From Botryosphaeria dothidea (Eukaryota; Ascomycota; Dothideomycetes; Botryosphaeriales; Botryosphaeriaceae), in the NCBI GenBank assembly GCA_011503125.2, contig WWBZ02000016.1, positions 2,790,001 to 2,854,000 on the forward strand: DNA of 64,000 nt, written 5' to 3'. A model generated the notes under the pieces. The model was given only the letters and a program-made list of their open reading frames with translations. It was not told the DNA's origin and ran no database searches. The position numbers were made by a program, and so were the translations under genes. Below, piece by piece: positions 34,714-63,873 of the stretch (its first letter is position 1; each line of letters starts with the position of its first letter).

Positions 34714-36546
34714 TCAAACCGCCGCGTGCCCGTGCGTCTCAAACGGCAACCCAAAGCACGACACCCCAACGCATACCCACAGCGCCGCGCTCACATAAAT
34801 CGGCACGGTCGAGAAGCCCACGTTCGCGCTGATCAAGCTCGCACAAAGCCCGCCGAACCGCAGCAGCGTCGCCGCCGTGCCCGTCCCCGTGCCTCGGACG
34901 GGGCCCGGGAAGGACTCGGGCGTGAAGGCGTACATGACGGCGTATTCTGTTCCACAACATCAGCACTCTTTTCATCCCTGGATGGAAGGGCTTTCTTACC
35001 GAAATTGCCCAGCACGCCCGTCACGCACTCGAACGCCAGGTTCTGCGTCTCGGTGCGGGCGGACGTGTAGGCGAAGAGGAAGACGCCCGTCAGGATGGCC
35101 GACAGGCCCATCATCCAGCGGCGGCCGAAGCGCGTTTCCACCAGGAAGCCCGCCGCGATGGGCCCGATGACGCCGACGGACGAGACGATGCAGTAGTTGC
35201 GGTAGGTCTTGTCGAGCGAGGACTCGGAGGTGAATTTGGTCTCGAGGTAGGAGGGGAGGAAGCCGAAGTAGAGGGGGTAGGCGATGCCTGTGCGGCTGTG
35301 TTAGTGGGTGAGAGTGGGGAGAAGGCGGGAGGTGTCGAACCGATGGTCAGCCAGATCAGCCAGGTCAGGCTGGTGTGCACGGCGAACTTGCGCGTCGCGA
35401 ACAGGTGCTTGTAATTGGCGCCCTTGTAGTCCTTGAGGTTCTCGCGCACGATGGCGCGGTGCGAGAGGCCCTTCTTCGCGTCGGGGTCGGCGGCGGCGAT
35501 GCCCAGCGTGGCGTCAATCTCCTCGAGCATGGCGAGGGTGAGCGTCTCGGGTTTGCCGTTGAAGCGTGCGATGTAGTTGACGGCAGCCACGGCCTCGGCG
35601 TCCTGGCCTTTGGATAGCAGGTACCGCGGGCTCTCGGGCATCTTGAAGACGAAGATGCGGATGATGCCGAATGCGATGGCGAGGGCGCCCAGAGTGATCA
35701 TCGTGTAGCGCCTGTGCTCGCCGTCAGTTCACTGGAGTACGACAAAGGGGGGAGAAGGAGTACTCACCAGCCCATGTTCTCGCTCCTGGAGCACGTGGTG
35801 TAGTCTGATCCGGTCGGACAGGAGTAGTTGGCCAGGAAGACCCATCCGATCAACGATACGATGACCTGGCCAAAGTTCCACCACGCCGACAGGGCCGTCA
35901 GCAGCCACTGGTGGCTGCCGGGGACGAACTCGAGGAAGATCATCGAGTCGACGGGCACATTACCGCCCGCGGCGGTACCGATGACGGCCCATATGGCGCT
36001 GAAGGCGACGAAGTTCTGGGTGCCGGCCACTGCGCACCCAAAGATGCCGCCGATGAGGATGGTCGCGTTGAAGGCGGGCTTGCGCCCGATCAGGTCGGCC
36101 GAGATGCCCCAGAAGGACGCGCCCAGGATCAAACCGACATAATAGGCCACCGAGCTGTAGCTGCGCTTGGTCACGTCGCTGAACTCGAGCGCCATGGCGG
36201 GTTGGACGGTGCTGATGCCTTGCGACCAGAAGTTGTCGGCGATCCAGCCGAAGCCCGTGACGACGAAGAGGAGCCATTGGTATCTGGGAGGGTAGAAAGG
36301 GTGAGTTGTTTTTCAACGGAGCGTGGATGGGGTGCTTGCTTACTTTCCCATTCCAATTTCAGCGAGATGCTTGCTGACCAGCTCGGATTTGAGCCTGTAG
36401 GAGTCGCTCACGCTGTTGCCATAGAAATCGCGGACGGCAGGGTCGTCAATGGCTTGCACGACACCCTCGCCGTACGACGCAGTCTTGGACAGAGCATTTG
36501 ACGTGGGCTCACGGGTCTTCTCGTCTTTGATGTCTTCGGACGACAT
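34714..36546 (-). CDS. MFS transporter, putative nicotinate-pathway permease (HxnZ/HxnP role)
   Basis: Five exons on the minus strand: 36546-36344, 36283-35768, 35711-35341, 35287-35000, 34946-34714; introns 53-60 nt; 536 aa with about 12 hydrophobic helices. MFS marks are the loop GISADLIGRKPAF (motif A-like), the PESPRYLL motif after helix 6, and a second ETRFGRRW loop, which place it in the sugar/phosphate-porter (PF00083/SV2-like) branch. TNA1-type nicotinate permeases belong instead to the anion:cation symporter branch. In A. nidulans the hxn regulon has two MFS genes, hxnP and hxnZ; this one fits the HxnZ position better, but the assignment is inference. It is divergent from the dioxygenase gene at 37238 over 691 bp, which supports co-regulation. 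Expected to sit in the plasma membrane. Confidence 0.85.
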
Positions 36547-37237
36547 GGCGGCGCGGGCTGTGGAGGTGCGGGGTGCAGGTAAGACACGGGAAAGAAAATT
36601 TTCGAGAGCTCGCATCATGAGATGAGAGGCTGGTGGGATATGTACGACGTTCTGCTAAGACAGCTTCCCCATGCTCGAACAACCAAGGCTTGGACAAGAC
36701 AATCAGGAGGCGTTTCCAGCAGTGCTGCAGACATGTTGCCCCAAATAGTTAGTCGGGGGTCGTCCGCGCGGGGTGCAGCCAATGCCGTGGCTGCACGTCC
36801 GACTGTTCCGCCGTGGCTCTGCGGCCGGGAGGAGAGGCAGGACGCACTCACTATTCTGATACGCTTTGCCGGATTGCGGTGGTTGATACAGTAACTGGTG
36901 CTTATCGCTGCTGCCGATAAACGATACACAATCCCGGAATATCAAAGATGGGGGCGCTCTCCCACTCTTCGCCGTCCGTGCGGGGGACACTGAGCCCGCT
37001 GCTGAGCTAAGCGAGCGAGTGGTGGGAGTGGTGCCCTTATCCACATCGGGCAACGTCTTCTCCGCCAATACACGCCTTCTCAGAGTGGAATGCGGAGCCA
37101 GAGAGCCTGCTATATCATACTGACTCCGCGACTTCCCGGTTCTTGCGTTGGAGCATGTACACACACAAAGCGGCCGCGAATCTCCTGAGCAAGCTAGTCG
37201 CTCCCATCTGCCGTGTACCAACATCCTTCCATTCATA
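36547..37237. promoter_or_regulatory. bidirectional promoter, transporter / hxnY
   Basis: A 691-bp spacer between diverging start codons. GATA-factor (AreA-type) cores HGATAR occur at 36902-36907 (minus) and 36915-36920 (plus), arranged back to back, plus a GGATAA core at 37038-37043. About two HGATAR matches are expected by chance in this length, so only the tight pair is suggestive. Nitrogen-repression control by AreA is known for hxn genes in A. nidulans. Confidence 0.45.
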
Positions 37238-38698
37238 ATGCCGGGTGAGGCGAATACTTCGCGCAGTCCGCCTCTTCTCGACTTTGCCTCGTTTTACGAC
37301 TCCGACCTGGCCAAGAAGCAGAAGCTCGTCAGTGAAGTGCGAGACTGCTGTCTTCACAATGGCTTCTTTCAGATCACCAATCACCCAGTGCCCATACAGC
37401 TTCAAGAGCGCGTCATGGCCTGGAACAAGAGGTTCTTTGACCTTCCGCTGGAGGAGAAGAAGAAGGTCGGCAAGGGTAAGAAGAACGATTCAGGAGCGTC
37501 AAAACAGGGACCAATGAATGCGGATGGAAGTGACTGCACAAACAGCGGTGGGAAAAGCGGGGCTCTCTGATCACTTTTGCTGACATTCTCCCCATATGCA
37601 GAGCTCAACACCTGGAACCGAGGCTACGAGTTGCTCCGCTCCCAGATCCTGGAAGAGGGCACGCTACCCGAGCTCAAAGAAGGTTTCTACGTCGGCGACG
37701 ACATCCCTGTCACCCACCCGTAAGGCGCTACCAACCCTACAGCACTTGAAACCTGGAAATTGAACCTTTCTTAGATACTTCATCAACAAGAAGCTCAACT
37801 CCGGCCCTAACACGTGGCCGTCTGCTGACACCTTACCGGACGTCGACGACTTCAAGCGCACATGTCTCGACTACTACTACTCGGTCGTGGCGCTGGCGAA
37901 GGACATCTTGAAGGTGATTGCGTTGTGCCTTGACCTGCCTGAAGATCACTTTCGCGAGTTTGCCGATGATGCTGTGGCCACGATGCGGTTGCTGCACTAC
38001 CCGCCTACCGAGAAGGGCGACGGCGAAGAAAAGTTGATGAGGGGCATCGGCGCGCACACCGATTTCGGAGCTGTGACTTTGCTGCTGCAGGATGAGGTGG
38101 ATGGATTGCAGGTGTGGGATAAGGAGGTCGAGCAGTGGTTTGATGTGAGTATATTCCCTCGTCAGACCCATAGTCTTGCCATATGCCTCTCTTTCTGGAA
38201 TTGTTTGGTCAATTCCGCCTCATTCAAGACGCGCCCAGAATTAGAAGATACTGATTATCCACCGCAGGTCGTGCCAGTGAAAGGTGCATTCGTCGTCAAC
38301 CTCGGTATGTTGTCCTCATACATTGCCCGCCTTCTCTCACTGACATGTCCTCAGGCAACCTGATGATGCGTTGGACCAATGACAAGTTCATTTCTAATAC
38401 TCACCGCGTTATCAACAAGTCAGGAAAGGAGCGGTACAGCATCCCGGTCTTCTTCAGCGGCAATCCAGATTATGTCATCGAATGCCTTCCCAACTGTCGA
38501 GCCTCCGAGGACGAAGCGCCCAAGTACCCACCCGTCACCGTCGAGGAGGCGGTAAGCGGCAGCTATCGGGAGAGCTATGGTAGGGCGGAGAAGTGGAAGG
38601 AGCAGATGCGGAAGAAGGAGGAGGAGGAGGAGGAAGAAGAAGAGAGAGCCAAGACAGCTGGAGGATTGAAAGGCGCACCGGCCGTAGCAGTTGCTTGA
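37238..38698 (+). CDS. hxnY: 2-oxoglutarate/Fe(II) dioxygenase, HxnY-like
   Basis: Five exons: 37238-37475, 37602-37719, 37775-38144, 38268-38304, 38355-38698; introns 126, 55, 123 and 50 nt; 368 aa. It has the non-haem DIOX N-terminal region ([12 protein letters not shown]) and the 2OG-Fe(II) double-stranded beta-helix with ligands H213-x-D215 (GAHTDFG) and H271 (NTHRVIN) and the 2OG-binding R281-x-S283 (RYS). Its relatives are isopenicillin N synthase-like dioxygenases. In A. nidulans, HxnY is the dioxygenase of the nicotinate regulon; its exact step is accessory as I recall. The C-terminal tail carries a run of about ten Glu ([14 protein letters not shown]) from a GAG/GAA repeat, probably unstructured. 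The start chosen gives the usual short N-terminus; the frame is open further upstream. Confidence 0.86.
38600..38648 (+). repeat. GAG/GAA trinucleotide run inside hxnY
   Basis: A purine-only microsatellite coding for a Glu-rich tract near the C-terminus of the dioxygenase. A likely site of length polymorphism. Confidence 0.7.
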
Positions 38699-40605: not shown

Positions 40606-43600
40606 CTACACGCACCCCTCCTGCGCGCCGCCAATCATCCGCCACGGCACCAGGCCCCTCAGCACCATCATGCCATCGTGCACGACGGCCCACCTGACCT
40701 TCCCCAAATGCCTGGCCACCGCCGCCGCCAGCCCGCTCGTCCGCCTGCGCATGACGGGCGGCCGGGTCGACCTGGCCAGCATCTCCAGCCTCCTCTCCTC
40801 CCTCCACCGGTCCCCTGCCGGCGCCTCGCCGTCCTCAGACTGCCCACCGCCCGTCATCGCCGTCATGCACCCCACCAGCTCCTCCAGCTCCCTGCCCGCA
40901 TCCCAAACCATCTCGTCCTCGCCCTCCTCGCCCCCCCCATCCACGCTATCCACCTCGTCCCCGTCCCCGTCCACCTGCTGCTGCTGCTGCTCCCGCTGCA
41001 CCGCGTCGACGCCTGCGACGGCGGGTTGCGGCCGCCCCTGCCACCAACACCACACCACCACCGTGGCGAGGTACAGGCACCACGGATAGTGAAACAAGCC
41101 CCCCGCATCGAAGCCCTCCAGCCCATCCACGCCCTCCCTGATCAGCATGGCCGCGTGCCGCGCCGCCCGCGCCGCCCTGAGGCGCTCGGCCTCGCCGCTC
41201 GCGTTCGCCCAGGCCTTGACGACGCGCGCGCTGCGGGCGTAATCCGCGCGGGCGACGGGCCGCCCCAGGATGTGGCGCGCGCCGGCGAAGATCTGCAGGT
41301 CGAGGAACTCGGCGTGCAGGAGCGCGTGGGCGGCGTGGTGGATGGCGGCGTGGGCGGTGCGCCAGGCGACGAAGTCGGCGCGCAGTCCTCGGTCTGCCTT
41401 TGAGGCGGGCTCGGCGCAGAAGAGCGAGAGGTAGCCGTCGCAGTAGGCGTCGAAGTGGGCCTTCCACGCGTCGTAGCTGGACGCCATGCGCGTCTTCCAG
41501 TCGCCGATGGGAGGGGGCTTGTTGGGGCTGCTGGCGCAGCCGCCGCCGACCATGCCGAGGGAGGTCTGGTCGCGGCGCTTCATGTCCCACGAGATGGACA
41601 TGAGGCCGTGCAGGATGAGCACGCGCGACAGGGCGTTGAGGTTGCGGGGCTGCGGGGGCCCGCCGGGGGTGAGGTAGGCTTTGATGAGAGAGAGGAAGAG
41701 CGGCGGGTTGTTCGTGCCTTTGGTTCTTCCGTTGCCCTGCTGCTGATGCTGGTGCTGCTTGCGCAGGCGCTGCCACAGCTCGGCGGAGTTGGCTTCCCAG
41801 AGCTGCTGGTCGCAGGGCAGGTTGGAGCGGAGCTCGAAGGCGGACATGCAGAGGGATTGGCAGAAGAGGACGGCGTGCTGGACGTCCCACATGAAGCAGA
41901 GGAAGGCCAGGCTGCGAAAATGCTGTTAGTGGTAGGTTCTTTCTCTCGTTGTGTGATTGCTTACCGTTTCTTTTGTTCCGCCTCGGCCCACTTCCTCCAG
42001 TCGTTGTCCAGGTCACCGCTGGAACGATCGTCTGTGATCGAGGTGCGGATGGTCTGGCAGTCGCTCCTCCGAATGAGGTTGATCAGCAAGCCGTGGAAAA
42101 GGTGGGCCATGTCATGCTGCTTCTGGCCAGCCCGGCTCTTGCCAAAGCATTCGACCAACAGGATGGTCTGCAGCACCCATAGATCCGGCTTGGCATTGAA
42201 CCCAGCATGGGCGAAGATCTGGGGTCGGAGAACGTCGTGGATGCAGACCTGAACATGTGAGCAAACTGCTTAATATAGGCATTTCATGCGACTTACGGCC
42301 ATCTGATGAGCATCTTTCTCACAATATGTGGCTCCGAGCAAAAGGACTGAGACAAGCAGCACGGTCTCCACACGCGAGGCATCGAATGTTGGCTGGTGGA
42401 TCAGGGGGTAAGCAGTGTTGAAGCGAGTGAAATAAAGATCACAGTAGATTTGCAACGACGACAGCGAGAGGAGAGGGTGATTCCTCGAGATGTAAAGTCC
42501 GTCCGGCGTGACTGGCTTGGCAGCTTCGATCACATCTAAGACTTGGGCACGGGCTACCTCATCAATGATTGGCAGGCTGGTGGAGCGGTTCATCGAGGAC
42601 ATTGGACGTTCAAAATCGATGCCCAGCTGCGCTTGGCGGGCGGAAAGCGAGTCACATGCGGCTCTGGTGACGTCTTCGGTTGGCGTGTTCGACGGAGTTG
42701 CAATGTTGACGGCCTGCGAGCGTCCAGTCGTGCCGCTAGAAACCGATTGCTGTCCATCGGCAAGGATCTGATGTTGCGGCTCGAGACTCGGCAGCGAAAT
42801 CGTGGTGGAATTGGCCATGCTCACGTCGGGCATGACTGAAGGGTGGGAGTGGGTATGGGAAGTGGTAGCGGATTGTGCACTGGTTGCGGCAATCGAACTT
42901 CCATCCACGGACAGAGTAGCAAGCTCACTGACAGCTGGCGTATGTTCCGTGGGTACGCCTGTAGCGAAAGTATGAGTGGAGGGCCGACTATCAGGAGCAG
43001 CTTGGTCTACGTGCGTTGCTGGAAACGTACCAGACAGAAGGTCTGGTGTCGAGGTCGTGAACTGCTGCGCTGCTGCTGCTGCCCCGAGGTCGACATCAAA
43101 TAGCCAGTTGTAATTGCTCATGGTCGTGAAGGGCATGTTGAACGAGCTGGCTTAGAGGCGGTCAGCCAATCGGGGACCATGTTGCGTGACACAAACACCG
43201 AGAATTTGTTGAAGTAATGCGTTTGATTATTCAATTAAGACACTGGCTTTTTCTGCATGTTCTACAAACTCCCAATAAAAGTGGAAGGGAGACATACCAG
43301 TGTCAGGATTGAATATGTCGTCGTACGGCACATCATCGGACAGATTTCTCAGACTCGACGCCTGCGGGCCTCCCGCATTGGACCAAAACCGATCCGTCTC
43401 TTGCGCCAATGGCTCTGGTTCGGGGTAGGAGTGAGTGTCGGGGGCGGGACTGAGCTCGAGAGGAGGGAAGACCCAAGTCTCGAAGGTGGGATCTGCCGTA
43501 GTGTCGCAAGCGTTCGATGACCTCCTCCCGTAGTCTTCTGACTGGGAGGATTGAGTGCTCGAGATCGGGGGAGAAATGGGAGCGTCACCCCTGAGGGTGT

Positions 43601-44286
43601 GGATGGCGTCTTCGAATGAGGCCGTGGTGGAGGTTGACAGCGACCTTCCGTGTTGGTCACTGGACGGCGAGTGGCGATGGGTCGACTTCTTGCCCAGGTT
43701 AGGGCGCTTGGTGACGATGTTGCCGTCGTGGTCCTTCCACATGCGCTTCCTGGTGTTCAGGACGCCGGCACCCTCGCCGCCGGCTTCCTCGTCTTTCTGT
43801 CTGTGACGCTGCATGTGTCTCTCTGCAGAGCCCTGTCAGCATGCGGCTCAATGGTGGGGTTGAAGGTGGGATGGCCGTGGACTGTGCTTCCACACGTGCA
43901 TGCTGGGACATGGGAGCCCGAAATAGCGGAACACCCCATTCTTCACGAAGCTTGAGCCCTCTGGGGAAGCAGGCGTAGAGTAACTAGCGCGGATATTTCA
44001 CGAAAGGGCGGCGCCGGCAATTCACCATCGTATTGCACTTACCCAGCAGGTCCTTGCGCTTGAAGTGTGCTCGGCAGCGCTCGCAGGTGCTCTCGCCGGC
44101 AGTGTGGTTGAGCAGATGTCTTTGCAGGTGCTCGGAGCGGGTGAAAGCCCGACCGCAGCCCTCAAAGGCGCAGGCGAACTTCTTGACGGGGGCATCGCCA
44201 GAGGCAGACACGGTGCTGCTCTTCCTGCGAGCGCGCGTGCGCTGGCCGGCGGCGTGGACGGAGGTAGTGGGCGAGGCGTTGCGCAT
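40606..44286 (-). CDS. hxnR: C2H2 zinc-finger transcription factor with fungal-specific domain, HxnR-like
   Basis: Five exons on the minus strand: 44286-44043, 43822-43298, 43150-42297, 42248-41965, 41911-40606; 1070 aa. Intron 1 (220 nt) cuts the second zinc finger; after splicing the fingers are C39-x4-C44-x12-H57-x3-H61 and C68-x2-C71-x12-H84-x3-H88 (KDLLERHMQRH). A long Ser/Thr/Pro-rich segment follows, then the fungal-specific regulatory domain (QIYCDLYFTRFNTAYPLIHQPTF, TYCEKDAHQMAVCIHDVLRPQIF, WVLQTILLVECFGKSR). The C-terminal part contains a six-Gln run and an acidic patch, possible activation surfaces. HxnR of A. nidulans has the same two-domain design and activates all hxn genes in response to a nicotinate derivative. 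The 3' splice site of intron 2 (TAAG) is atypical but is the only one keeping the frame. The second start option would be nearer the fingers, but no Met lies there. Confidence 0.85.
40976..40992 (-). repeat. CAG repeat coding for poly-Gln in the regulator
   Basis: About six CTG units on the plus strand, read as Gln codons on the coding strand. Typical low-complexity segment of fungal regulators. Confidence 0.75.
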
Positions 44287-46462: not shown

Positions 46463-49400
46463 TCAAGCAACCGTAACAAAAAAATTCGTCTCGCCCTCCC
46501 CCGGCACCACCATCGTCCTCTTCACAATCCCATCCCCGACGGCCAGCCTCAACTTCTCCGCCGTCGCCGGACTCTCCAACACCAACCCTTCCACTCCCGC
46601 CTTCCCCTCCAATCCATTCCCTGCCCTCGCCGCCCTCACCGCCTCCCTCAGCGCAAAAAACACCGTCGCCCCCAGAAAAAGCGGCGGCTCGCCAATTCCT
46701 TTACTGCTCTGCACGCTCCTGAGGTGCTTCCACGTTAGCTTCTTACCCTCCCCATCGACCCTTAACATCGCAGCGTTGAAGATCTGCGGGATGTCGCTGA
46801 ACCCCGGGATCTTGTAGTTGCCGGGGCCCCTGGTGGCGAGCTGGCCGTCACGTGTCCAGAGCGACTCTTCGATGGTGTAGAGCCCGACGCCTTGCACGAA
46901 GGCGCCTTCGATCTGGCCGTAGTCGATGGCCGGGTTGATGGACTGCCCGACGTCCATGAGGATGTCGGTGCGCAGGATGGTGTGGTCTCCCGTGAGCAGG
47001 TCGAGCTCGACTTCGGAGACGGCGACGCCTTGGGCTGTTGAGGGGGGTCGTGCATTAGTATGGCTTTTTTCTTATTTTTCCTACATTTCTCGTTCTCTTC
47101 CATTTTCAAAAGGAAAAAAAAAAGGAAAGAAGGGTAGGCTGAATGAAAAGAGGAGGATTGAGACTCACTGAAATAGTAGTACATGTCTTTCACCTTGGCG
47201 ACATCGTACTCGCCCCACCGATACCCAATCCGGGGCATCTTCCAAAAGCCATTAGCAGCGAGGTTGACCCTATCCAGGTACGCAGCATGCGCAATCGTCT
47301 TGAACGGCGTATCTCTACCGAGCTTCTCCCAATACGGCTTCAACCGCGCGTTCAGCTGGTCGCACGCGTCCTTGACGGCCATGCCATTCAGATCACTGCC
47401 AGAGCTAGCCGCCGTCGGCGACGCGTTGGCGACCTGGTAGCTCTGGCTGTCCTGCGTGAAGATCGCATCCAGTGGCACGCCCAGTTCCTGTGCACACACC
47501 TGACACATCTTGGTGTACAACCCCTGCCCCATCTCCGTGCCTCCGTGATGTAGCAGCACGCTGCCGTCGGCGTACACCTTGACGTACGCGCCTGCCTGGT
47601 TGAGGTGTAGCGCCGTCGCGAAGCTCAGGCCGAACTTGGACGGGATCATGCTAATGCCACGCTTCTTCCACTTGTGAGAGGCGTTGAACTTTTGGATAGC
47701 CTTTTTCCGCGCCTCGAAGTCGGAGGATTTTTTCAGCTGGTCCAGCATCGTCGGAACGTGCCAATCCTCGTCGATGCGCTGCAGGAAGGGCGTGCGGTCG
47801 CCGATCTTGTACAAGTTCCGCACCCGCAACTCGTCGATGTCGAGTCCCGTCCCCTCGGCGATGGCGCTCATGATCTGCTCGGCGACGTACATGGCCTGGG
47901 GCCCGCCAAAGCCGCGGAAGGCCGTGTTGCTGTGGATGTTCGTGCGGCAAACGTGGCCCCTGATCCAGGCGTGGGGCGTGTCGTAGCAGTTGTCGAGGTG
48001 CGTGCAGCAACGGTCCATGACCGCGCCCGACATGTCCTGCGAGAAGCCGCCGTTGTTGTAGACGTCGGCATCGAGCGCCACCAGCTTCCCGTCCGCCGTC
48101 GTGCCGACCTTCCAGCGCACCTGGATTGGGTGTCTTTGTCCGCTGGTCATCATGTCTTCGTCCCGGTTCAGCATCGTGCGGACGGCACGCCCCTCTTTTC
48201 TGGCCGCGATGGCGCAGAGGCACGCGATGGGCACGCTGCGGGACTCCTTGCCGCCAAAGGCGCCGCCCATGCGCTTGACGCGCGCGTTGATGCGGTTGCT
48301 GGGCACACCGAGCACCTGGCTGACGAACTCTTGCGTCTCGGTCGTGTTCTGCGTCGACGACCACACCTCCATCGACCCGTCCTCGCGATGCGGGATGGCC
48401 AGCGCCGCGTTGGTCTCGAGGTAGAAGTGCTCCTGGCCGCCCATCCGCGTCACTCCTGAGAAGACGCGGTCGCACTGCGCAAAAGCCTCGTCCATGCGGC
48501 CCGCGAGCGCTGCGCCCTTCTTCAGCTGCTTGCCGTGCGGGAAGAAGCTGTCGGCCTCGATCGCCTCGTCGATGGTCAGGATGGCGGGCAGTTCTTCGTA
48601 GACGATCCGCACCGCCTTAGCCGCTGCTTGCGCCTGCGGCGCCGTGTCCGCGTAGACCATGCCTATCGTGTGGCCGTGGGACAGGACGACGCCGTCGGCG
48701 AAGAAGGTCTCGTCCTTCTTGACCGAGCCCCAGATGTTGGCCTCCTTGGGGATGCTGTACTTATCGACGTACCCGACCACGCCCGGCATCGCCAGCGCGG
48801 GCGTCCAGTCCACCTCGACCAGCTTCGCGTGCGCCTTGGCCGACAGCACCAGCGCGCCGAACAGCTCGCGCTCCTGCCGCTCCATGTCGTCGACGTACTG
48901 CGCCTCGCCCGTGCACTGCTTCAACGCCGACAGGTGCGGCACTTGCTTGCCCACCACGCGCTGCTCATGCGGGTTGTAGTCGTCGCGCGCGCCCGACGAC
49001 AGCTCGCGGTGGATTTCTCGGACGAGGTCTGCGTCCACGCTGCCCATCCCCAGCTCCGCCACCACCTCGTGCCAGAAGCGGAAGAAGAGCGAGAGCGCCA
49101 GCGCGCGCCGGTAGTGCGCCATGCCGCCGGGCACGCTGAAGCTGAGGTTGAAGTCTGCTGCCAGCGCGTCCAGGCCCGCTTCGAGCGTGGCGGACTCGAA
49201 CCACGTCTTGCCCGTCAGGGCCTCCTGGGCGCGCTTGGCTTCGACGGTGGTGGGCGCCATGCCGCCGTAGGCCAGGGTGGCGTGCGTCACGGCCCCTGAG
49301 GAATCGAGGCGGACGCGGAAGGCAGCGGTTACGATGGCGATGTCGTCGTCTTTTCGTTTTGCTTGCTTGTAGGCCTTTGTAACTTCTTTGGCATCTCCGG

Positions 49401-51063: not shown

Positions 51064-51663
51064 TTGGGCTCTGTCTTCTCTCCCTTGCTCCTAGTTCGAC
51101 TTCGCAGCACCATCATCATCAGCTCTCAACTTGCACATGAGTGTGTTTGAGCACACAGACGACTTACATGACGGTTCTCAGACGTGCTGGTCGGATGGGG
51201 CGATCGTCCGGGAAATGTGCAACCTTCTCCCACCTCTGCCGCGACGCAGCGGATATATGAAGTCGGAGAGGAGCTGCACGTATCGCTATCGCCTCCTCTT
51301 CCCGACGTTAACCTTAGTTACTTCGCCCCTGTGCGACGCAGCCGACGGGAGCGGATCAGCCGCAGCCGGACAACCATTCATCGATCAGCACTATCAGCCA
51401 CCCGCTTACTGGACGCTAAACCATCCCCCTCTCCCACTCTTCCCACTCTGTATCCCATTCCCACTTCTCTCCACAGCGCGTCTGAAACTTCAATGCAGAT
51501 CACACCATTACGCCTGAATGACTTGCGAGACTTCCACAAGCTCATACAAGAACGAGTCAGAATGTCGCCGACCGACTTAATTTTTTCGCCCTCTCTTCCT
51601 CTCCGTCTCTGCTCCCTTCTTATACCTTAGTCGTCTTTCGCTCTAATTGCACCGAAAACAACA
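51064..51663. promoter_or_regulatory. bidirectional promoter, hxnS / hxnT
   Basis: A 600-bp spacer between diverging starts. Minus-strand HGATAR cores occur at 51286-51291 and 51391-51396, about the number expected by chance (1.8). A long pyrimidine-rich leader (51420-51480 and 51585-51620) precedes hxnT. No palindromic HxnR site could be assigned. Confidence 0.45.
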
Positions 51664-52976
51664 ATGCCTGCCCCAATCACGAATCCCAGCTTCCCGCCGC
51701 TCAAGGATACGGCGCTCTTCAAGCCGGTCCAGCTGGGCAAACTCGAACTCAACCACCGCGTCGTTCTGGCCCCTCTGACGCGCATGCGCGCGAAGAAGGA
51801 AAGCGATGGCATTTTCGTCCCGCACGAGCTCAATGTCGAGTACTACAAGCAGCGCGCCAGCAAAGGCGGCCTGCTCCTGACCGAAGCCACGGACATCTGC
51901 CACTACGTAAAAAATCCAAACGACGCCCTCCAACGAAAAGACCTCATTCACTGAACACCACCTTTTCACAGGCCAGCGGCTACCCAGGCGTTCCCGGCGT
52001 CTTCTCGCCCTCGCAGCTCGCCGGTTGGAAGCACGTCACCGACGCCGTGCACAGCAAGGGCGGCGCCATCTTCTGCCAGCTCTGGCACACCGGCCGCGCC
52101 TCGCCGCTGTCCTTCCGCGCCGGCGCGCAGCCCGTCAGCAGTGGCACGGTGCCCATCTCGGGCAACGCGCTCGACGGCACCGCGTACGGCGACAACCCGC
52201 CGCGCGCGCTGACGGTGCCCGAGATCCACGCGCTGACGGCCGAGTGGGCGGCGGCGGCGAAGCGCGCGGTCGAGCAGGCCGGCTTCGACGGCGTCGAGAT
52301 CCACGGCGCCAACGGCTACCTGCTCGACCAGTTCCTGCACGACAACGTCAACGCCGAGCGGGCCGACGCGTACGGCGGCTCCGTCGCGCACCGCTGCCGC
52401 TTCGTGCTCGAGGTCATCGCCGCCGTGGGCGCGGCCGTCGGCGGCGCGCGCACCGGCGTCCGCCTCTCGCCCTACAACTACTTCCAGGACACCAAGGACA
52501 GCAACCCCAACGCGCACTGGGCGCACCTGTGCGCGCAGATCGCGGAGCTGCCCGAGGACCGGCGCCCCGCGTACGTGCACATGGTCGAGCCGCGCTTCGA
52601 CGAGGTGCTGGACGAGGGCGCGAAGCTGGACGCGCTGGCGGCGTACACGGCGCATCCGGACGTCGAGGCCGAGGCGACGGCCAAGGCGTCGCCCAAGAAC
52701 AGCCTCGTGCCGTTCCGGCGCATCCTGGCCAAGGGCGGGGTCAAGTTCTTCGCGGCGGGCGACTACAAGCGCGAGAACGCGGCGCCGGTGGTCGAGGCGG
52801 GCGATGCGGATTGCGTCGTTTTTGGCAGAAGGTTCCTCGCGAATCCGGATCTGCCGAGGAGGCTGGCGGAGGGGTTGCCGCTGAATGAGTATGACCGGAC
52901 GACGTTCTATGGGGCGGATCCGCCGCAGAAGGGGTATGTGGATTATCCGTTCTTTGAGGAGGCGGTGGCGGCGTAG
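51664..52976 (+). CDS. hxnT: Old Yellow Enzyme-family NAD(P)H:flavin oxidoreductase, HxnT-like
   Basis: Two exons, 51664-51906 and 51972-52976, with a 65-nt intron; 415 aa. The FMN-binding TIM barrel is complete: LAPLTRMRAKKESDG near the N-terminus, QLWHTGRAS, the substrate-binding His/Asn pair in EIHGANGYLLDQFL, YGGSVAHRCRF, RLSPYNYF and VVFGRRFLANPDLP near the C-terminus. Family members reduce activated C=C bonds. In the hxn pathway HxnT is thought to reduce the hydroxylated pyridine ring. It is divergent from hxnS, so a shared promoter is likely, and hxnS and hxnT are also neighbours in A. nidulans. The coding sequence is extremely GC-rich. Confidence 0.9.
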
Positions 52977-53901: not shown

Positions 53902-55021
53902 ATGGGCAAGAAGCGCGTTCTCGTCAGCTACGGCGTCGACATCGACGCTGTCGCCGGCTGGCTTGGTTCGTACGGCGGCGAGGACTCGACGAGCGACATC
54001 AGCCGCGGTAAGACTCCACATCCTCTCCCTTCCTCGTGGAATCTTCATTGAGACTGACAAGCCCCGCAGGCATGTTCGCCGGCACGATCGGCATCCAGCG
54101 CCTCCTCAGGCTGTTCGACAAGTACAAAATCAAGGCGACCTGGTTCATCCCGGGCCACTCGCTCGAGACGTTCCCCGAGGAGTGCGCGGCGATACGCGAC
54201 GCGGGCCACGAGATCGGCCTGCACGGCTACTCGCACGAGAACCCCAAGGACATGACGTTCGAGCAGCAGCGCGACGTGCTCGACAAGACGTGGCGCATGC
54301 TGACCGACTTTGCCGGCAAGCCCCCTCGCGGCAGCGTCGCGCCGTGGTGGGAGGTCAGCCGCGAGGGGACGGAGCTCTTGTTGAGCTACGGCGTCGAGTA
54401 CGACCATTCGATGAGCCACAGCGACTACCAGTGCTACTGGCTGCGCACGGAGGACTCATGGACCAAGATTGATTACTCGAAGAAGGCGGAGGAGTGGATG
54501 AAGCCGCTGGTCAAGGGCAAGGAGACGGGGTTGGTGGAGATTCCGGGGAGCTGGTATATCGATGATCTGCCGCCGATGATGTTTATCAAGGGCGCGCCGA
54601 ACAGCCATGGTTGGGTGAGCCCGAAGGTGGTGGAGGAGCTGTGGATGGTGAGTGCACATGTTTCGGTGGCTTCTGAGGAGGCTTGAGGCTGACTGCCGAC
54701 AAGGATCATTTCGACTACTTTTACCGCGAGTACGACGAGTTTGTCTTCCCGATGACGATTCATCCGGATGTCAGTGGCAGGCCGCATGTCCTACTCATGC
54801 ACGAGAGGTGAGGCTACACTGATTGGACCATATTGATTTCGTAGCTGATTCTTTGCAGGATCATCGAACACATCAACAAGCACGAGGGTGTGGAATGGGT
54901 GACGATGGAGCAGATGTGCGACGACTTCAAGAGCAAGAACACACCAGTTCCCGGGGCTATGATGCCGACGCCGATTGAGGAGGTTCTGAAGAGATACGAA
55001 GCAAAGAAGGCTGCATCGTAA
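53902..55021 (+). CDS. hxnM: polysaccharide-deacetylase-fold hydrolase, HxnM-like cyclic imidase
   Basis: Four exons: 53902-54007, 54070-54647, 54704-54807, 54859-55021; introns 62, 56 and 51 nt; 316 aa. There is no signal peptide, so it is cytosolic and not a chitin deacetylase of the wall. It has NodB-homology landmarks: the Asp motif SYGVDID (D13/D15), [12 protein letters not shown], and [10 protein letters not shown] with H87 and H91. It resembles the HpPgdA-like/cyclic-imidase branch of carbohydrate esterase family 4, whose members open cyclic imides. In A. nidulans, HxnM belongs to the nicotinate regulon and, as I recall, opens the 3-hydroxyglutarimide (3-hydroxypiperidine-2,6-dione) ring. 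Cluster context supports this. The alternative, an allantoinase of the PuuE type, fits less well because the flanking genes are not purine-pathway specific. Confidence 0.85.
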
Positions 55022-55634
55022 TGTTAGGAGTACGAACTGACGGCTGCAATGGGATATCCGGGTAGTTTTACGTTTTGGGTGCCGTTGCTTTGAGATATAC
55101 TCTGTAGATGTATCAAGATATCGTTCATCGTTCTAAGACTTTCAATGCTCCAAATGTTTGGTCAGGACACATAAAGACACAAGTGAATTTTCCTCAGCCC
55201 TGGACGCGTCGGACGCGCCGGAGGACATGAGGCGAGCCGCTTCCGCGAGCCGATCGTCACGCTCCCTCCCTTCCATCCTACCCCACTTCTGCACTCTTGC
55301 TCCTCCTGCACAACCGACCATGAACCTTCTGGCGCCGGCCGATACTTCCAGCACTCTACCTATCGGGAGCCGCGTGCATGCGTGCGGCGCCAGAATGCTT
55401 ATTTCCGTACCACCACCGCGACCACCACTGTTGCGCCTGCATCCACCTTAGCCTGTAGTGATGTCAAGCGTGCCCTCCTGCAACCTCTCTTTCCTCGCAA
55501 ACGTATAGAGAGCTTTCAACTCGCAAATAATACAACCTCTTCACCTCAAGTCTCTTGAGCCGAAAAAGCCTTCTCTGCATCATCATCATCATTATCGTCT
55601 TCTTCTCCAAGCGTCTCATTTCTCCTCTCCCACC
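55022..55634. other. intergenic, promoter of the hxnX-like gene
   Basis: No gene. HGATAR cores at 55360-55365 and 55592-55597 (minus). A (CAT)n run sits at about 55578-55590 and a CT-rich leader just before the start. Confidence 0.4.
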
Positions 55635-57145
55635 ATGCCGCCCAACCCACCACCCCCCATCCAGCAAAAGATCGAACGCGATCCTAGCACCAAACTCAAC
55701 GCAAGCCCCCTCTCCCTCCCCTCTTCCTTCCCCTCCTCCAACTAACACCACCCCAACAGATCATCATCGTCGGCGCCGGCCTCGGCGGCCTCGGCGCCGC
55801 CATCTCCCTCCTCCTCGCCGGCCACGCCGTCACCGTGCTCGAGGGCGCCTCGCAGATCGGCGAGGTCGGCGCCGGCATCCAATGCCTGCCCAACTCGTCG
55901 CGCATCCTGCTGTCGTGGGGGCTGGGCCCGCTGCTGTCGCGCGCGCACACGCAGCCGCGCCGCTGCAACATGCTCGGCTGGAAGGGCAACGCGCTCGCGC
56001 ACATGGACTTCCACGCGTACGCGGCCGCGTGCGGCACGCCGTTCTGGGACTTTCACCGCGCGAACCTGCATGCGGGGCTGCTGGAGCGGGCGGCGCAGCT
56101 GGGGGCGGCGGTGCGGGTGGACGCGCGGGTGGTGGATGTCGTCGTGGTGGGGGACGGCGCCGAGTGCGTGTTGCAGACGGGGGAGCGGGTGGGCGCGGAC
56201 GTGGTGGTGGGCGCGGACGGGATCAACAGTCGGTGTCGCGAGATCCTGCTGGGCCGGGAGGACCCGCCGGTGCAGACGGGCGATTTGGCGTATCGGTTGC
56301 TGTTGAGCACTAAGGAGATGATGAAGGACCCGGAGTTGAGGGGGTTCGTAGAGGATCCGCAGGTAAATTACTGGATGGGGCCGGATGCGCATGCTGGTGA
56401 GTTTGCTTGTTGAAGGGATGTTTTGTGAGGGCGAGACTGACGGTGCGCAGTGAATTACGTCTTGAGGGGCGGCGAGCTGTTCAATATGGTGCTGCTTGTG
56501 CCGGATGATATGCCGGCGGGTGCTACGACGTTGGAAGGGAATGTTGAGGAGATGCGCGCGCTATACAAGGATTGGGATCCGCGCATCCCAAAGCTGCTGG
56601 CGCTTTGCGAGAGCGTGTATAAGTGGCGCTTGTGCATCAGGCCGACTTTGGAGCCCAGCTGGTCGGATCCTTCTGGGTCTTTCGTTCTGCTGGGAGACGC
56701 TGTGCATGCAACGCTGCCGTATTTGGCCAGCGGTGCTGGCATGAGTCTGGAGGATGCGAGCGTGCTGGGACTGTGTCTCGCAAAGATCAAAAACAAGAGC
56801 AAGGAGGAGAAGCGGAGAGCGCTGAGAGTTTACGAGAAGTGCAGGAAGGAGCGGACCGAGAAGGTGGTGCAGCGCGGTAATTTGCAGCAGCACCTGTATC
56901 ACATCCACGACGGCGAGGAACAGCGCGAGAGGGACAGGTTGTTTGCGGCTTGGAATGAGTATGAAGAGATGAAGAGGAGAGGGGAAAATCCAGACATCCA
57001 AAAGCTTGGTTTGATGCAGGGAACTGATCCGTTCCCGTGGAGGTTCAGTGGTGTCGGAGACTGGTTATTGACATACGACTGCATGAGGGATGTTGAAGCC
57101 AACTGGGGAAGTGAGGAAGAGGTCGTGGAGAGGGCAAATCTGTAG
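55635..57145 (+). CDS. hxnX: FAD-dependent monooxygenase, HxnX-like (6-hydroxynicotinate hydroxylase role)
   Basis: Three exons: 55635-55700, 55760-56396, 56451-57145; 465 aa. The first intron is of the rare GC-AG type: the donor is AAC|GCAAGC and a CTAAC branch site precedes the acceptor. No GT donor exists nearby, and the join gives an intact FAD fold, IIIVGAGLGGLGAA (G27-x-G29-x-x-G32). Later come VVVGADGINSRCR and the GDAVHATLPYLASGAGM motif typical of salicylate-hydroxylase/aromatic-ring hydroxylases. The likely reaction is oxidative decarboxylation of 6-hydroxynicotinate to 2,5-dihydroxypyridine, as known for HxnX and bacterial NicC. Without the context, salicylate hydroxylase would be an equally good name. 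Confidence 0.87.
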
Positions 57146-57418
57146 AGTAGGTCAATAGCTCGAATCCAACAATTCTGATGTCTTATAAACACTGACGTTC
57201 GTAGAGACCTATGGAAGCTCTCGCTAAGTTGAGAGTATTCATCAATTCTCACACCTGCCGTTTTTTCATCGTGTCCTTCTGTTGTTTTGCTCTTTCCGGA
57301 AGGAATCTCGGGCGTACCCTCATCATGTGCGTCATTCTTCCCAAGGCAGTCGCATGGCTCACCATGCAGAGGCATCTTCCCTGCACTTTTTATCCATCCC
57401 AATAGCAATCATCTCCCA
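57146..57418. other. short intergenic region
   Basis: The frames at 57211-57405 and 57287 onward are continuous with the next gene but have no evidence of translation upstream of 57419. Confidence 0.35.
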
Positions 57419-58790
57419 ATGAGCATCTCAACGATCGCAATGCCTTCTACTATCTCCTTACACCCTCGACCAAAAGTCATTTCGATCAGCGAGCTCGAGG
57501 CTTCAGTACTCGAGAATGGGGACGATCCGGCTGGCAACTTGACAGAAATTGAATGGTACGCTCTTCAGTCTGTAATACAACGAAGAACCGGCGATGGACA
57601 ATATCCTCCTCTCGAGATACTGAAGAAGGCGAAGGATCAGACGGCGAATTCCCCGCTCGGGGTGCTGGACACGCCAGCATGGCTACAGTGGCGGCTTGCG
57701 CATCCCCTCGGAGGATCCAGAATTTCACACTCACTGCCAAAGCAGCAAGACTCTAATGAAAGTGCCCGTATAATCCCAAAGGCTTCAAGGTCCGCCGCTG
57801 CTACTCAGGTATCGATTTTTTTTTCTTTGCCTTCGAATATGTTGGAATCCCAGCTAATGAATCAATTAGTCCAATTCAGGGCCGAACACATCCGAAAGCA
57901 CCAACGCCAAGTATAGAACTCCCAGGATCAAGCTGGAAGATGGCTATATAGGCAATACAAAACGGAAGCATGATGACGAGCCTTCCGAGATAGGTCCGAG
58001 AAAGGCCAGCCGCCAGACATCAGCAGCGAAAGCAGTAACATCGGAAGGCGCTTCGTCCTCTGAAGTCTCTATAGACATACCTCAGATCCGGGAAGATGCT
58101 GGTTCACGCCCAGGAACTGCAGCACCACGCCGTAGCCTACGCCTTGCTAGCCGCGTAATAGCGAGTTGTCAAGGTTCATTTCCGGGTCCGACCGATATAT
58201 TCCCCGAAGAACACAAACCAGCGCTGAATGACCCTTTCAAAATATGGCAGCTTACGTATGAGTCCGTGTCCTACCACGTCGTTCAAATGGCAATACGCAA
58301 TACAATCGGAGACGCTCCTCCCATTACGACTCTAATCCAGTGTCGAGATCGCGGTTCCCAGACTCTGGATCCTCTGGACTCGAGGGCCTGGACAATGTGG
58401 AGGTACGGTAAATACCTCAGCATCGATTTGCAGTACTTGGAAGACACGTCGGATCTCATCATTGAAGCCGGAATGGTGAAAGTCATCGAGACGCTTCTGA
58501 AGTCCACTAATCGACACATTGTTCAATTATTCATCGCGATCTTTGATCTGTTGCCGGACTATGAGAAGCAAGCCCTCAAGGAGATTGATGTCGCAAAGAC
58601 TGAAGCGGAAAGGAAGTGGCTCAATTTTTTTCTTTCTTTGATAAGCAGTGCGAATAAGGGAAGTTCGCTTCCATTGTGCTATCATTTTGGGTCAAATTGG
58701 TTTTGGTGGGCATATCTGACTCTTTTTCGATTGGACCCTCTTCTCAGATCTCTTCTGCAATCAACTCTGGACCCAAAGAGATTGATTTAG
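57419..58790 (+). CDS. uncharacterised fungal protein
   Basis: Two exons, 57419-57808 and 57870-58790, joined by a 61-nt GT-AG intron with a GCTAAT branch site; about 436 aa. The frame is open for 300 codons after the junction, which supports it as a real gene. No known domain is recognised. The N-terminal half is low-complexity and basic, with bipartite KRKHDDEP and PRRSLRLASR stretches that could be nuclear signals. The C-terminal half is helical and hydrophobic-patterned (IKWQLTYESVSYHV-like, then SIDLQYLEDTSDLIIEAGMVKVIETLLKS and IVQLFIAIFDLLPDYEKQAL), reminiscent of a helical protein-binding module. The 3' end is unsure: an in-frame 72-nt segment at 58676-58747 has GT and AG ends and may be an intron. 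It lies between two FAD monooxygenase genes of the cluster. Confidence 0.6.
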
Positions 58791-59138
58791 CTGGCATGAA
58801 GGATGAAAATTGGATCTTGATGGGGCAAAGATCGATTGACGGATTGATAACAGGCAAAAATCTGGGTTTTATCTGCGTAAGAGTCAATACATGAGATGGT
58901 ATCAATGGTTTTCTTGTGTTCCAATCCGAGTCCTTGAGATCCCTGCAACCAAAGAAGAGACTAGTATTTGTAGGCTCTGGTGTGATTCCGGCCCCCGCAG
59001 GATTGATACGGAGCTATGGCCCCGGGCTAAAAATACATCCCGCGGCCCGGCGCAGGAGCTCACCCTTTAAAACAACCTCATTTCCCCGTATCTCCATCTG
59101 CGCAAATCCTCCACACCGATCAACATAAAAAATCGACA
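58791..59138. other. intergenic
   Basis: No gene recognised. A short frame continues out of the upstream gene to 58894 if the optional intron is shifted. Confidence 0.35.
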
Positions 59139-60229
59139 ATGCTCTTCTCCCGCGGCCTGGGACGGCCCGGACTGGAGCCAATCCGAAGATATGGGTCCTT
59201 CGGCAAATACGTCGCCCTCCTGATTATCAGCTTCCTGCCGTTCCTGATCTTCTTCGTCGGATCCATTGTCTCGCTCGTCCAATTGATCCGCAACCGCGCA
59301 TGGTACCTATGGGGCGTCGTGATCGCCGGCCAATTGATCGCCTACGGCTGCATCGCCAACCAGCAATTGCAGCCGCACATCAAACCTCTCGTCCGCACGC
59401 GCGATTTCTGGCCTTTCGTCTCCATCATCGAGTCCGTCGCACATCCCCGTGCACATCACATAGCGTGATCGCTGACGCGTCCATTCCCGTACAGTGTTGG
59501 CGCCTTCTTCCTCGCCCAAGCCGGCTTCGCCACGCTCTGCCGCCTGGCCTGGTCCATCATCCCGACCTCTTTGACCACCGTCTCGTTCTCGTCTGTGCGC
59601 GAGGCCGGCAAGGTGCTGCGCGATCGCCGCATCGGATATCTGCTGCTCCTCCCGCACGGCGTGACGCCGGTGGTGGCGCTGTGGTGGCCCGCGGCTTCGT
59701 CGTGGACGCCGTTTCTGCAGTTGCCTTTCTGCGCATACTTTGCCACTGTTGCCGTCGAGTACCGCCGGCTAGCGCTCGAGTGGGGCGCGGAGGAAGGTGA
59801 AGATGAGAATCTTGATCCGGAAGGGAGCAGGCCCTGTGGGAAGCTGTTTGACGCGCTATGGGCGATAGCTGGGACACTGACGGTATGCCCTTTTGTCACC
59901 TCATTAATTCCTATCTCTTGGAATGATGTCTTGCTGATCATCTTGAACAGTTGCGCTCCATCCTGGGTGTCATTGCTGTGGCTATTGGCATAAACCAGAG
60001 CCCTCACAATTACCTCCCTTTGGCGTACTCCATCTTTGTCGATGACATTCCCTTGTTTGGTACGCCGATCTCCCAGGAACACCCATTGGACACATGCTTA
60101 CATTGTTTGACAGTATGCTTTAGAATGTTCTGGAAAGCCCATCCAGGATTGTACTTACCGCGACAACTTCTTTCCTTGACTTTCAACAAGGATGCGAAGG
60201 GCTCGTATGCACCAATTGCTATGGAGTAG
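59139..60229 (+). CDS. uncharacterised multi-pass membrane protein
   Basis: Three exons: 59139-59431, 59495-59882, 59951-60229; introns 63 and 68 nt; about 319 aa. The first intron's donor, GA|GTCCGT, is weak, but it is the only one that keeps the frame and yields VGAFFLAQAGFATLCRLAW. Hydrophobic helices include YVALLIISFLPFLIFFVGSI, LWGVVIAGQLIAYGCIA, the GAFFLAQ helix and IGYLLLLPHGVTPVVALWW, and one or two weaker ones follow. No transporter motif is visible and I recognise no family. The N-terminus (MLFSRGLGRPGLEPIRRYGS) is basic, so a cytosolic N-terminus or organellar targeting are both possible. The C-terminal end past the LRSILGVIAVAIG helix is less certain. The position inside a catabolic cluster makes a transport role worth testing. 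Confidence 0.6.
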
Positions 60230-61602: not shown

Positions 61603-63873
61603 TCAATAATTCGGCGCGCCAACGTGATCCGACAAGAACCCCTCGAAATACTCATCCAGCCACCTCATCGCCTCCTGGCCATTCTCCCTGCTGCCATCGG
61701 ACCACACCTGCAGCGTGCCGACGTAGCCGTCGGGCCGCATGACGGCGACGGCGGTCTGGTCGCCGTCGAGGCCGCCGAGCCACTTGTCGACGCAGCCCTG
61801 GCCGCTGGTGTCGGCCAAGGCCACGTCGTCCAGGTAGACGGTCCAGGCCGAGTCGCGCAGGACCTGCGGCAGGTCGGCGATCTCGAAGGTGGTCTTGGGC
61901 GCGGCGGTGACGAGGGCGTAGGTGAAGAGGCAGGAGACGGTGGTGTAGCGCTCGGGGCACACGAACTCGTCGTGCGGCGCGGCCATGGGCGGCTGCAGCG
62001 TGTAGCTGGCGTTGGCGGCGGCGCTCATGCGGCCCATGAACGACTGCTGGCTGTTGGCGTGGCCGCAGACGGCGTCGACGAAGGGCCGGCTGGCCAGCGC
62101 GTCGTTGCAGAAGAAGTAGATGCGGAACTGGCCGAGCATGGGGATGTCCAGCTGGAGGTCGACCGGGTTGGCGTCGACGTAGCGCGTCACCTTGGCCGGC
62201 GTGGGCAGGCACCCCGGCTTCAGGTCGCCGGTGCCCATGGCCTTGGTCGGGGCGTTGAGCGCGTTGGGCCCGTATTCGGCGCCGATGCCAGAGATGAAGC
62301 GCACGTTAGTCATGAAGTTCGCGGCCAGGGCGGCCGAGTCGCCCGCCGCGAAGGCGCTGGCGTGCTCGTAGTCGAAGTTGATCAGATCTTGGGCGATCTT
62401 GCGGCGCTCCTCCTCGTACGTCGCCAGCAGCTCGGGCTTGGCCAGCCTGCGCACGGCCAGGTTCAGCTTCCATGCCAGGTTCCAGCCGTCGTGCATCGAA
62501 GTGTTCCTGATTGGAAGAGAAAAGAAATTAGTTTTCTTTCGGCCAGGAAGTGTAGCCGTTGCTTTTTCATTGTCAAACACTCACATGCCCTGTGCGGCCT
62601 TGGGGGAGTGCGTGTGACTGGCCTGTGCGGGAACGGTCAGCATGAATGATCTACAGCGAGTCAGCCCCCCGGGATACTCACGTCTCCGCAGATGTACACC
62701 CTCCCCCTATCATCGGTAAATTTAGTCGCCACCCTCTGGCCGACCTGGTATCTTCCGAACCATTCTTCAGCAGAGTCAGTCAGGCGAACTTCCGGCAGAT
62801 GATTGATCCGGCGAATACGAGACGTGACGTACCGACAGTCTTCCATCTCAGATGGAAAGGGTCCATAATCTCCTGGGCTCTGTGCATGACGAATTCCTGC
62901 GTAAGCTCGTCTCGCGACGTGCCCGTTCTCGACTCCGGCTTCAGCTCGATGTACAGCCTGGTCAGATTGCGCTCGCGGGGAATGATCAGGACAGAGCCGG
63001 CTTCTTCGGAGTAGATGACGGCCTTTGACCAGAGATCGGGAAAGTTTGTCTCGATCTGACCGTCCAAAACTCCCCAAATAGCATCCGATGAAGCTCCAAC
63101 TGGCTGCGCTCCTGGGATAGACTTCCGCACTTGCGAGTGCGCACCATCGCATCCAACAACGTAGCTCGTCGTCAAGGTGCGCTTCTGGTGCTGGACGTCG
63201 GTCATGCAGCTGACTTCAATGGGGGCGGTCTTTCCGGTGTATGCAAAGTCCATGAAGGCGGTGTTTCTCCTGACATCGACTCCACGCTCTTTCAAATCAT
63301 CGATGAAAAGCTGCTCGATCATTCCCTGGTGGACGAGGAGGATGTAGGGGTCCAACAGGTCCACTGTTTCATGGGGATAATGCACCTCCCGGCCAGCTCT
63401 GTGCATCTTGTCGTTCAGAGCAGACCTCTGCCGTCCAAATCAGCATTTAACAACGGAATGAACAGGAAAAAAAGAAATGTTTGCCATACCCAAAAGCAGA
63501 TGTCGAAGACTTTCACGCCCTTGCGGAGCAGCGGGTCAACCAGTCGCATCTGGCGAAGCGTCTCGATTGACTTTGGTTGAAGTCCATCGGCTCTGCCGGT
63601 CAAAGTGCGGTCCGGTCGATTGTCGATGATGTTGACCTTTATTCCGAAGCGAGCAAGATTGTCCCTGCGTACTTTTTTGAGCACTTGCGCAAGGGAACTC
63701 AACGTGTGAACTTACGCAAGCATGAGACCTGCCGGACCAGCTCCAACAACCAAAACATCACTGGTGGATGGGCCGTGGAATCCGTAGTTGCCGCTGACAT
63801 TGGGGACGTCGGCCGTTAACACATTGACGCTGCCTTCTCTGAGTTCTTCGTCCGGAATCTTGCTGGGGGACAT
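61603..63873 (-). CDS. hxnV: FAD monooxygenase of the phenol-2-monooxygenase type, HxnV-like
   Basis: Six exons on the minus strand: 63873-63716, 63664-63490, 63427-62833, 62764-62682, 62622-62585, 62506-61603; introns 51-78 nt; 650 aa, the typical length. Joining restores the FAD loop [14 protein letters not shown], then [25 protein letters not shown], the [11 protein letters not shown] motif, [19 protein letters not shown] and the [10 protein letters not shown] helix. A C-terminal thioredoxin-like dimerisation domain (PHOX_C) follows to the end. These proteins hydroxylate phenolic rings using NADPH and O2. In A. nidulans HxnV acts on 2,5-dihydroxypyridine, as I recall giving trihydroxypyridine. 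The CGDASHTHSP sequence has Ser where most relatives have Ala. An upstream Met at 63936 is in frame; the inner start is preferred for its family-like N-terminus. Confidence 0.88.

Follow-up and report, generated by a model that had tools for sequence, protein, structure and literature searches.

The question raised by this locus is whether Botryosphaeria dothidea carries the hxn genes for nicotinate breakdown, gathered in one place. We analysed a stretch of 64,000 nucleotides (C12:2790001-2854000, in a genome of 51.68 Mb and 78 contigs), referred to below as the window. An earlier note on this DNA had placed eight genes with an hxn-type enzyme set at positions 34,714-63,873. Gene models and a Pfam-A scan agree with that proposal; all eight expected domain assignments are present in the interval. 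The hxn-type identity is borne out too. Residues of HxnS, HxnX, HxnV and HxnT match those published, and orthologues of HxnS, HxnX and HxnR lie together in other fungi. We conclude that the locus is very probably a vertically inherited hxn cluster that would serve the use of nicotinate as a nitrogen source. What the analysis shows is the identity of the genes, from domain content and diagnostic residues, together with their order, orthology and co-location in relatives. The reactions, regulation and phenotype are inferred from Aspergillus nidulans (PMC9304392, PMC8478523).

A nine-gene hxn locus

Gene models came from a small splice-aware predictor, for which the long open reading frames of the window served as training set, and were then corrected by reading the frames. 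All models, boundaries included, are our own predictions from sequence. Features are as follows (window numbering; aa, amino acids; FAD, flavin adenine dinucleotide).

34714..36546, minus strand: MFS transporter, HxnZ-like; 536 aa, 5 exons; MFS_1 and Sugar_tr
36547..37237, no strand: promoter common to the transporter and hxnY; 3 GHGGGG, 2 HGATAR
37238..38698, plus strand: hxnY-like 2-oxoglutarate dioxygenase; 368 aa; exons 37238-37475, 37602-37719, 37775-38144, 38268-38304, 38355-38698
40606..44286, minus strand: hxnR-like regulator; 1,054 aa, 6 exons; two C2H2 fingers and Fungal_trans
46463..51063, minus strand: hxnS, xanthine dehydrogenase (XDH)-type nicotinate hydroxylase; 1,488 aa, single intron 47035-47168
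51064..51663, no strand: shared divergent hxnS/hxnT promoter; 600 bp; 1 GHGGGG, 2 HGATAR
51664..52976, plus strand: hxnT, old yellow enzyme (OYE); 415 aa, 2 exons
53902..55021, plus strand: hxnM, CE4/PgdA-type cyclic imide hydrolase; 316 aa, 4 exons
55635..57145, plus strand: hxnX, 6-hydroxynicotinate monooxygenase-like FAD enzyme; 465 aa, 3 exons; His233/Tyr237; C-terminus RANL
57380..58790, plus strand: putative gene (weak model) in the hxnX-hxnV gap; two pieces without NCBIfam match
59139..60179, plus strand: putative membrane-protein gene in the hxnX-hxnV gap; no Pfam match
61603..63873, minus strand: hxnV, phenol-hydroxylase-like 2,5-dihydroxypyridine monooxygenase; 650 aa, 6 exons
63874..64000, no strand: first part of the divergent hxnV/hxnN promoter; hxnN lies outside the window
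~64450-67012 (C12 ~2,854,450-2,857,012), plus strand: hxnN, amidase; Amidase 2.9e-92

The gene order is MFS-Y-R-S-T-M-X-V-N, with hxnN, the ninth hxn gene, beyond the window. The eight genes do lie nearly side by side, as the earlier note had it, but hxnX and hxnV are separated by 4,457 bases holding two putative genes without family match. The extent proposed there encloses the eight genes but ends too early, cutting hxnN, as modelled, from the cluster. The amidase beyond hxnV is identified as hxnN by family and place, because it belongs to the Amidase family and the divergent hxnV-hxnN couple is conserved (PMC8478523). It has FAAH-type relatives, and 576 bp separate the two start codons. An hxnN intron at 66684-66755 was rejected on reading frames, as was an hxnV intron at 63056-63130.

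HxnS is distinct from the xanthine dehydrogenase HxA

HxnS is a full-length XDH-type protein with seven Pfam domains. Published marks that set HxnS apart from xanthine dehydrogenase are a FATAL-type insertion, His for Phe1013, Ser-Gly, Pro for His954 and an aliphatic residue for Phe417 (PMC5746545). The window protein carries all five, reading FATALH, TAASSG, the Pro of GDRTPF and Val at the bovine Phe417 position. The Pro at position 954 was placed by motif; the alignment ended before it. The genome has one further XDH (C1:1130121-1134361), 57% identical to HxnS over residues 338-1487. It reads FTALF, AS and GDHTHF and is without the three HxnS marks readable in it. Hence, we identify it as HxA. 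HxA, which serves purine use, shares its family and domains with HxnS but has FTALF, AS and His where HxnS has FATALH, SG and Pro. The assignment to HxnS rather than HxA, on which the earlier note laid weight, stands. Among the best 120 HxnS homologues, the FATA pattern was matched in 107, with the other 13 falling outside the pattern, and SPTAASSGS was present in 117.

At 1,488 aa, HxnS is longer than the A. nidulans protein (1,396). A long Ser-rich linker containing CGRPGGCC lies between the iron-sulphur and FAD domains. The predictor first proposed an intron in this linker. We rejected it because the reading frame runs through without a stop and encodes CGRPGGCC.

The remaining enzymes and the transporter

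Pfam assigns HxnX to the salicylate-hydroxylase-like FAD enzymes (8.8e-19). Its His233 and Tyr237, four residues apart, correspond to the 6-hydroxynicotinate-binding pair, placed by pattern rather than by direct alignment to 5eow. The pair lies at 232/236 in A. nidulans (PMC9304392), and the pattern was found in 114 of 120 HxnX homologues. HxnV matches FAD_binding_3 (1.8e-61) and Phe_hydrox_dim (2.9e-22), and the phenol-ring site residues Asp79, Lys246, Leu258, Ile260 and Tyr270 are present. The spacing of the last four equals that of Lys231, Leu243, Ile245 and Tyr255 in A. nidulans (PMC9304392). HxnT is an OYE (Pfam, 7.5e-77; OYE1 structure 1oya, 1.3e-67), with His192, Asn195 and the C-terminal Tyr403 found by motif. 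In kind and spacing, the substrate residues of HxnX, HxnV and HxnT agree with those described in PMC9304392.

The cluster holds both an imide hydrolase, hxnM, and the amidase hxnN, as expected of hxn clusters outside Aspergillus. HxnM is of CE4/PgdA type (Pfam, 1.8e-17), and its similarity to PDB 3qbu (1.2e-132) is about full-length. Paralogues outside the cluster (C8:326815-327812 and C47:1420410-1421404) reach 64% and 43% identity, respectively, in matching pieces; HxnM paralogues have been described likewise for dikarya (PMC8478523). HxnY matches DIOX_N (8.2e-28) and 2OG-FeII_Oxy (3.6e-24); its best PDB match is TraH (9ig3, 3.6e-59), and thymine hydroxylase 5c3p matches at 1.8e-37.

The transporter (MFS_1, 4.7e-23) has SV2/SLC22 and aromatic-acid/H+ symporter relatives, with all NCBIfam matches below curated cut-offs. 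HxnZ has 533 aa and a domain from residue 89; HxnP has 491 aa and a domain from residue 49 (Table 1, PMC8478523). In length, domain start and family the window protein resembles HxnZ rather than HxnP, although its gene stands beside hxnY in the place of hxnP.

Briefly, the proposed route is as follows. The HxnZ-like carrier would import pyridine compounds. HxnS would convert nicotinate to 6-hydroxynicotinate, which HxnX would decarboxylate and hydroxylate to 2,5-dihydroxypyridine. Further hydroxylation by HxnV would yield 2,3,6-trihydroxypyridine. HxnT would reduce the ring, and an HxnW-type dehydrogenase encoded elsewhere would form a cyclic imide. HxnM would open this imide and HxnN would release ammonium.

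HxnR and the promoter sites

HxnR has a C2H2 finger (1.2e-7) and a Fungal_trans domain (PF04082, 2.5e-49). A second C2H2 finger falls below the Pfam cut-off, yet all its ligands are present. The finger contacts are R/H/R and R/L/R in the window protein and in all 76 homologues parsed (of 120). By the general recognition code, these contacts agree with a GHGGGG site. GHGGGG is the predicted HxnR site (PMC8478523).

We counted sites in the promoters of the hxn genes (six regions, 4,405 bp), with 300 shuffles, and in 13 control promoters (11,575 bp in all). The hxn regions hold 17 GHGGGG (shuffles 10.6 +/- 3.0; 9 of 300 reach the count), 62 GNGGDG (39.4 +/- 6.3; 0 of 300) and 13 HGATAR sites (7.6 +/- 2.5; 10 of 300). 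Per kb, hxn and control promoters have 3.86 and 1.64 GHGGGG, 14.07 and 6.91 GNGGDG, and 2.95 and 1.90 HGATAR sites, respectively. Every hxn promoter region contains at least one GHGGGG and at least one HGATAR. In the proposed scheme, a late pathway intermediate would cause HxnR to activate the genes through GHGGGG-like sites, and scarce nitrogen would cause AreA to activate them through GATA sites.

Orthologues are co-located in other fungi and the cluster looks vertically inherited

To assess co-location, longest-contig sizes were compared across the match lists of HxnS, HxnX and HxnR (best 120 each). The lists have 34 sizes in common for HxnS and HxnX, 35 for HxnS and HxnR and 49 for HxnX and HxnR; 24 are common to all three. 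Locus tags, taken to follow gene order by convention, are close in Coniothyrium glycines (R, 010260; S, 010261; X, 010263), Pleosporales sp. CAS-2024a (R, 007374; S, 007373; X, 007371) and Hypoxylon texense (R, 001393; X, 001394; S, 001396). In other fungi, the orthologues of these three proteins are encoded on common contigs, and the grouping is more than chance.

HxnS is 89% identical to its homologue in Macrophomina, 88% in Neofusicoccum ribis and 84% in Lasiodiplodia, all Botryosphaeriaceae. One metagenome protein matches HxnS at 99% identity over 88%. In a tree of 41 rows (the window protein, the genome's own HxA and 39 of the 120 matches), all nine labelled Botryosphaeriales rows of HxnS fall on one side with support 100. 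In the HxnX tree (120 matches), a six-row set that includes the window protein has support 97. In the HxnR tree (120 matches), the Botryosphaeriales label takes two changes; an unlabelled metagenome row, P0245 (98% identical), adjoins the window protein. Horizontal transfer of the cluster is unsupported, as all three trees put the window copies with Botryosphaeriales. Vertical inheritance looks the simplest reading.

One HxnX homologue, P0219, is named Lasiodiplodia mahajangana but is 61% identical to the window protein, against 82-85% for Diplodia. It was left without a Botryosphaeriales label, and the record may be misnamed.

Weighing alternative explanations

Several points count against a vertically inherited cluster for nicotinate use. 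Growth on nicotinate and induction of the genes are predictions for this fungus. The sites are modestly enriched, and the hxn promoters are in part GC-richer. Hence, the sites support control by HxnR and AreA weakly. The Botryosphaeriales split in the HxnX tree is weak (support 33). The MFS gene has relatives elsewhere in the genome with up to 48% identity, and no HxnP-type transporter was recognised in the cluster, as judged by length, domain start and family, without TNA1 or HxnP sequences. Finally, none of 19 PF13561 matches and 116 protein-query matches places an hxnW-type gene in the 104 kb at C12:2,780,001-2,884,000; the PF13561 search scored 18 of 298 candidates, making this an incomplete census.

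The last two points raise the possibility that this is an hxn cluster whose ring-degrading route lacks a step or has been rewired in the lineage. For growth on nicotinate the fungus would then depend on a dehydrogenase encoded away from the cluster and perhaps under other control; otherwise the cluster would serve detoxification rather than nitrogen supply. No short-chain dehydrogenase/reductase (SDR) match of either search lies in the 104 kb, and the hxnM-hxnW couple, conserved elsewhere (PMC8478523), is broken here; the upstream neighbour of hxnM is hxnT. However, 116 SDR-type matches occur elsewhere in the genome, so that an unlinked HxnW is easily possible, and split hxn clusters work in A. 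nidulans (PMC8478523). The content of hxn clusters also differs between taxa (PMC8478523). Hence, the absence of hxnW does not exclude membership among hxn clusters. We regard an incomplete or rewired route as unlikely, though the most serious of the alternatives. HxnW candidates elsewhere were compared with published positions 14-21, 119, 147, 162 and 166 by the spacing of TGxxxGxG, Ser, Tyr and Lys. Some (e.g. L037, L043 and L058) come near in one distance only; none fits all positions and none is named here.

A cluster used mainly for other aromatic acids of the salicylate or gentisate type, with nicotinate as a side substrate, is very unlikely. HxnX and HxnV do come from aromatic hydroxylase families, and in Aspergillus terreus expression of the nicotinate cluster is high on salicylate, where the cluster is upregulated (PMC7842363). 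The top PDB relatives of HxnX are decarboxylative 4-hydroxybenzoate and vanillate hydroxylases (1.3e-99 and 2.9e-88), with 6-hydroxynicotinate 3-monooxygenase behind (5e-45), a further point against the preferred reading. Fold and chemistry do fit HxnX; these matches alone leave the substrate undecided. However, HxnS has the marks of a nicotinate hydroxylase, and an imide hydrolase with an amidase would seem sensible only for a nitrogen-containing ring. That generic oxidoreductases and a transporter came to be neighbours by chance is hardly credible. Each domain is common by itself, and three of the genes (transporter, OYE and dioxygenase) are of generic kinds. The diagnostic residues of HxnS, HxnX, HxnV and HxnT and two published divergent couples retained speak against chance, as does the co-location of orthologues of HxnS, HxnX and HxnR in many other fungi, which in practice refutes it. 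An hxn cluster for nicotinate use, inherited vertically, is the explanation we prefer.

Relation to known hxn systems

The hxn cluster occurs across Ascomycota (PMC7842363). The earlier note had stated that the A. nidulans genes are split over three loci and that some Pezizomycotina are reported to have single clusters; both statements are found in print (PMC8478523 and PMC9304392 for the former, PMC8478523 for the latter). Single 11-gene clusters are described for Cyphellophora europaea and Hymenoscyphus repandus, and content elsewhere is very variable (PMC8478523). Like those clusters, the present one has the divergent hxnS-hxnT couple, which is conserved (PMC8478523), and hxnM and hxnN inside. 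The hxnV-hxnN couple is as in C. europaea. In contrast to both, it has nine hxn genes, hxnW and hxnP are unrecognised in it, two putative genes are inserted and the order is MFS-Y-R-S-T-M-X-V-N. The A. nidulans regulon, whose nicotinate pathway has been worked out (PMC9304392), is matched by HxnS, R, Y, T, X, V, M, N and an HxnZ-like carrier, with the same predicted chemistry (PMC8478523, PMC9304392). The differences are one locus rather than three clusters, an HxnX ending in RANL rather than SRL and the longer HxnS.

The locus is a further example of a known gene cluster and not a new type of system. None of the Botryosphaeriales names that we looked for occurs in the main text of PMC8478523, PMC5746545 or PMC7842363, figures and supplements aside. 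For this reason we do not claim a first report. The locus would extend the characterised eukaryotic nicotinate pathway to Botryosphaeriales in a compact nine-gene form. With hxnW and hxnP unrecognised in it and the hxnV-hxnN and hxnS-hxnT couples retained, it is useful for tracing gain and loss of cluster members.

An unusual C-terminal motif in HxnX

The HxnX peroxisomal targeting signal type 1 (PTS-1), SRL in A. nidulans, is said to be conserved in other Pezizomycotina (PMC9304392). The window HxnX ends in RANL and has no canonical PTS-1; this is a trait of localisation and does not define the cluster. Nor did inspection of the sequence by eye show a canonical signal reached by read-through or a last intron. 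RANL is likewise the ending of the two Diplodia homologues. More broadly, R-[ASP]-x-[LIM] forms the C-terminal end of 89 of 120 HxnX homologues, where x is V in 36, S in 17, N in 16 and L in 10 as its main residues. From composition, 0.16 endings of this kind would be expected. Shifted one residue inward the pattern occurs once, and shifted two to eight residues it never occurs. Entropy is 1.57 and 1.60 bits at positions -1 and -4, against 3.0-3.9 at -5 to -12. Only eight of the 120 have the canonical [SAC][KRH][LM]; 48 satisfy a relaxed PTS-1 formula and 64 the Reumann formula (formulas via PMC12316961). RAVL-type endings fit neither. Among the 31 homologues without the motif, some models are truncated or wrongly annotated. 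Most of the sample comes from Dothideomycetes and Sordariomycetes, and no readable row is named Aspergillus.

A strongly peroxisomal A. nidulans protein ends in ANI (PMC12316961), which makes RANL plausible as a signal. We tentatively suggest, with more doubt than confidence, that outside Aspergillus the R-[A/S/P]-x-[L/I/M] ending may hold HxnX in peroxisomes, or shuttle it to them. A fixed Arg at -4 would replace the basic residue at -2 of PTS-1, and canonical endings, perhaps including SRL of A. nidulans, would be special cases. The motif looks new; we found no description of it in the papers listed by our literature searches, supplements aside. As a non-canonical ending in 89 of 120 homologues, it puts the published PTS-1 generalisation in question. 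If our suggestion is true, the organelle in which 6-hydroxynicotinate is broken down and a looser Pex5 code become directly testable.

Redundancy in the assembly

Six pairs of identical matches link contigs C36 and C78 at a near-constant offset of ~885.6-885.7 kb. Further identical-match pairs link C36 with C16, C10 and C69. The assembly contains either duplicated or redundant megabase stretches or separate haplotypes.

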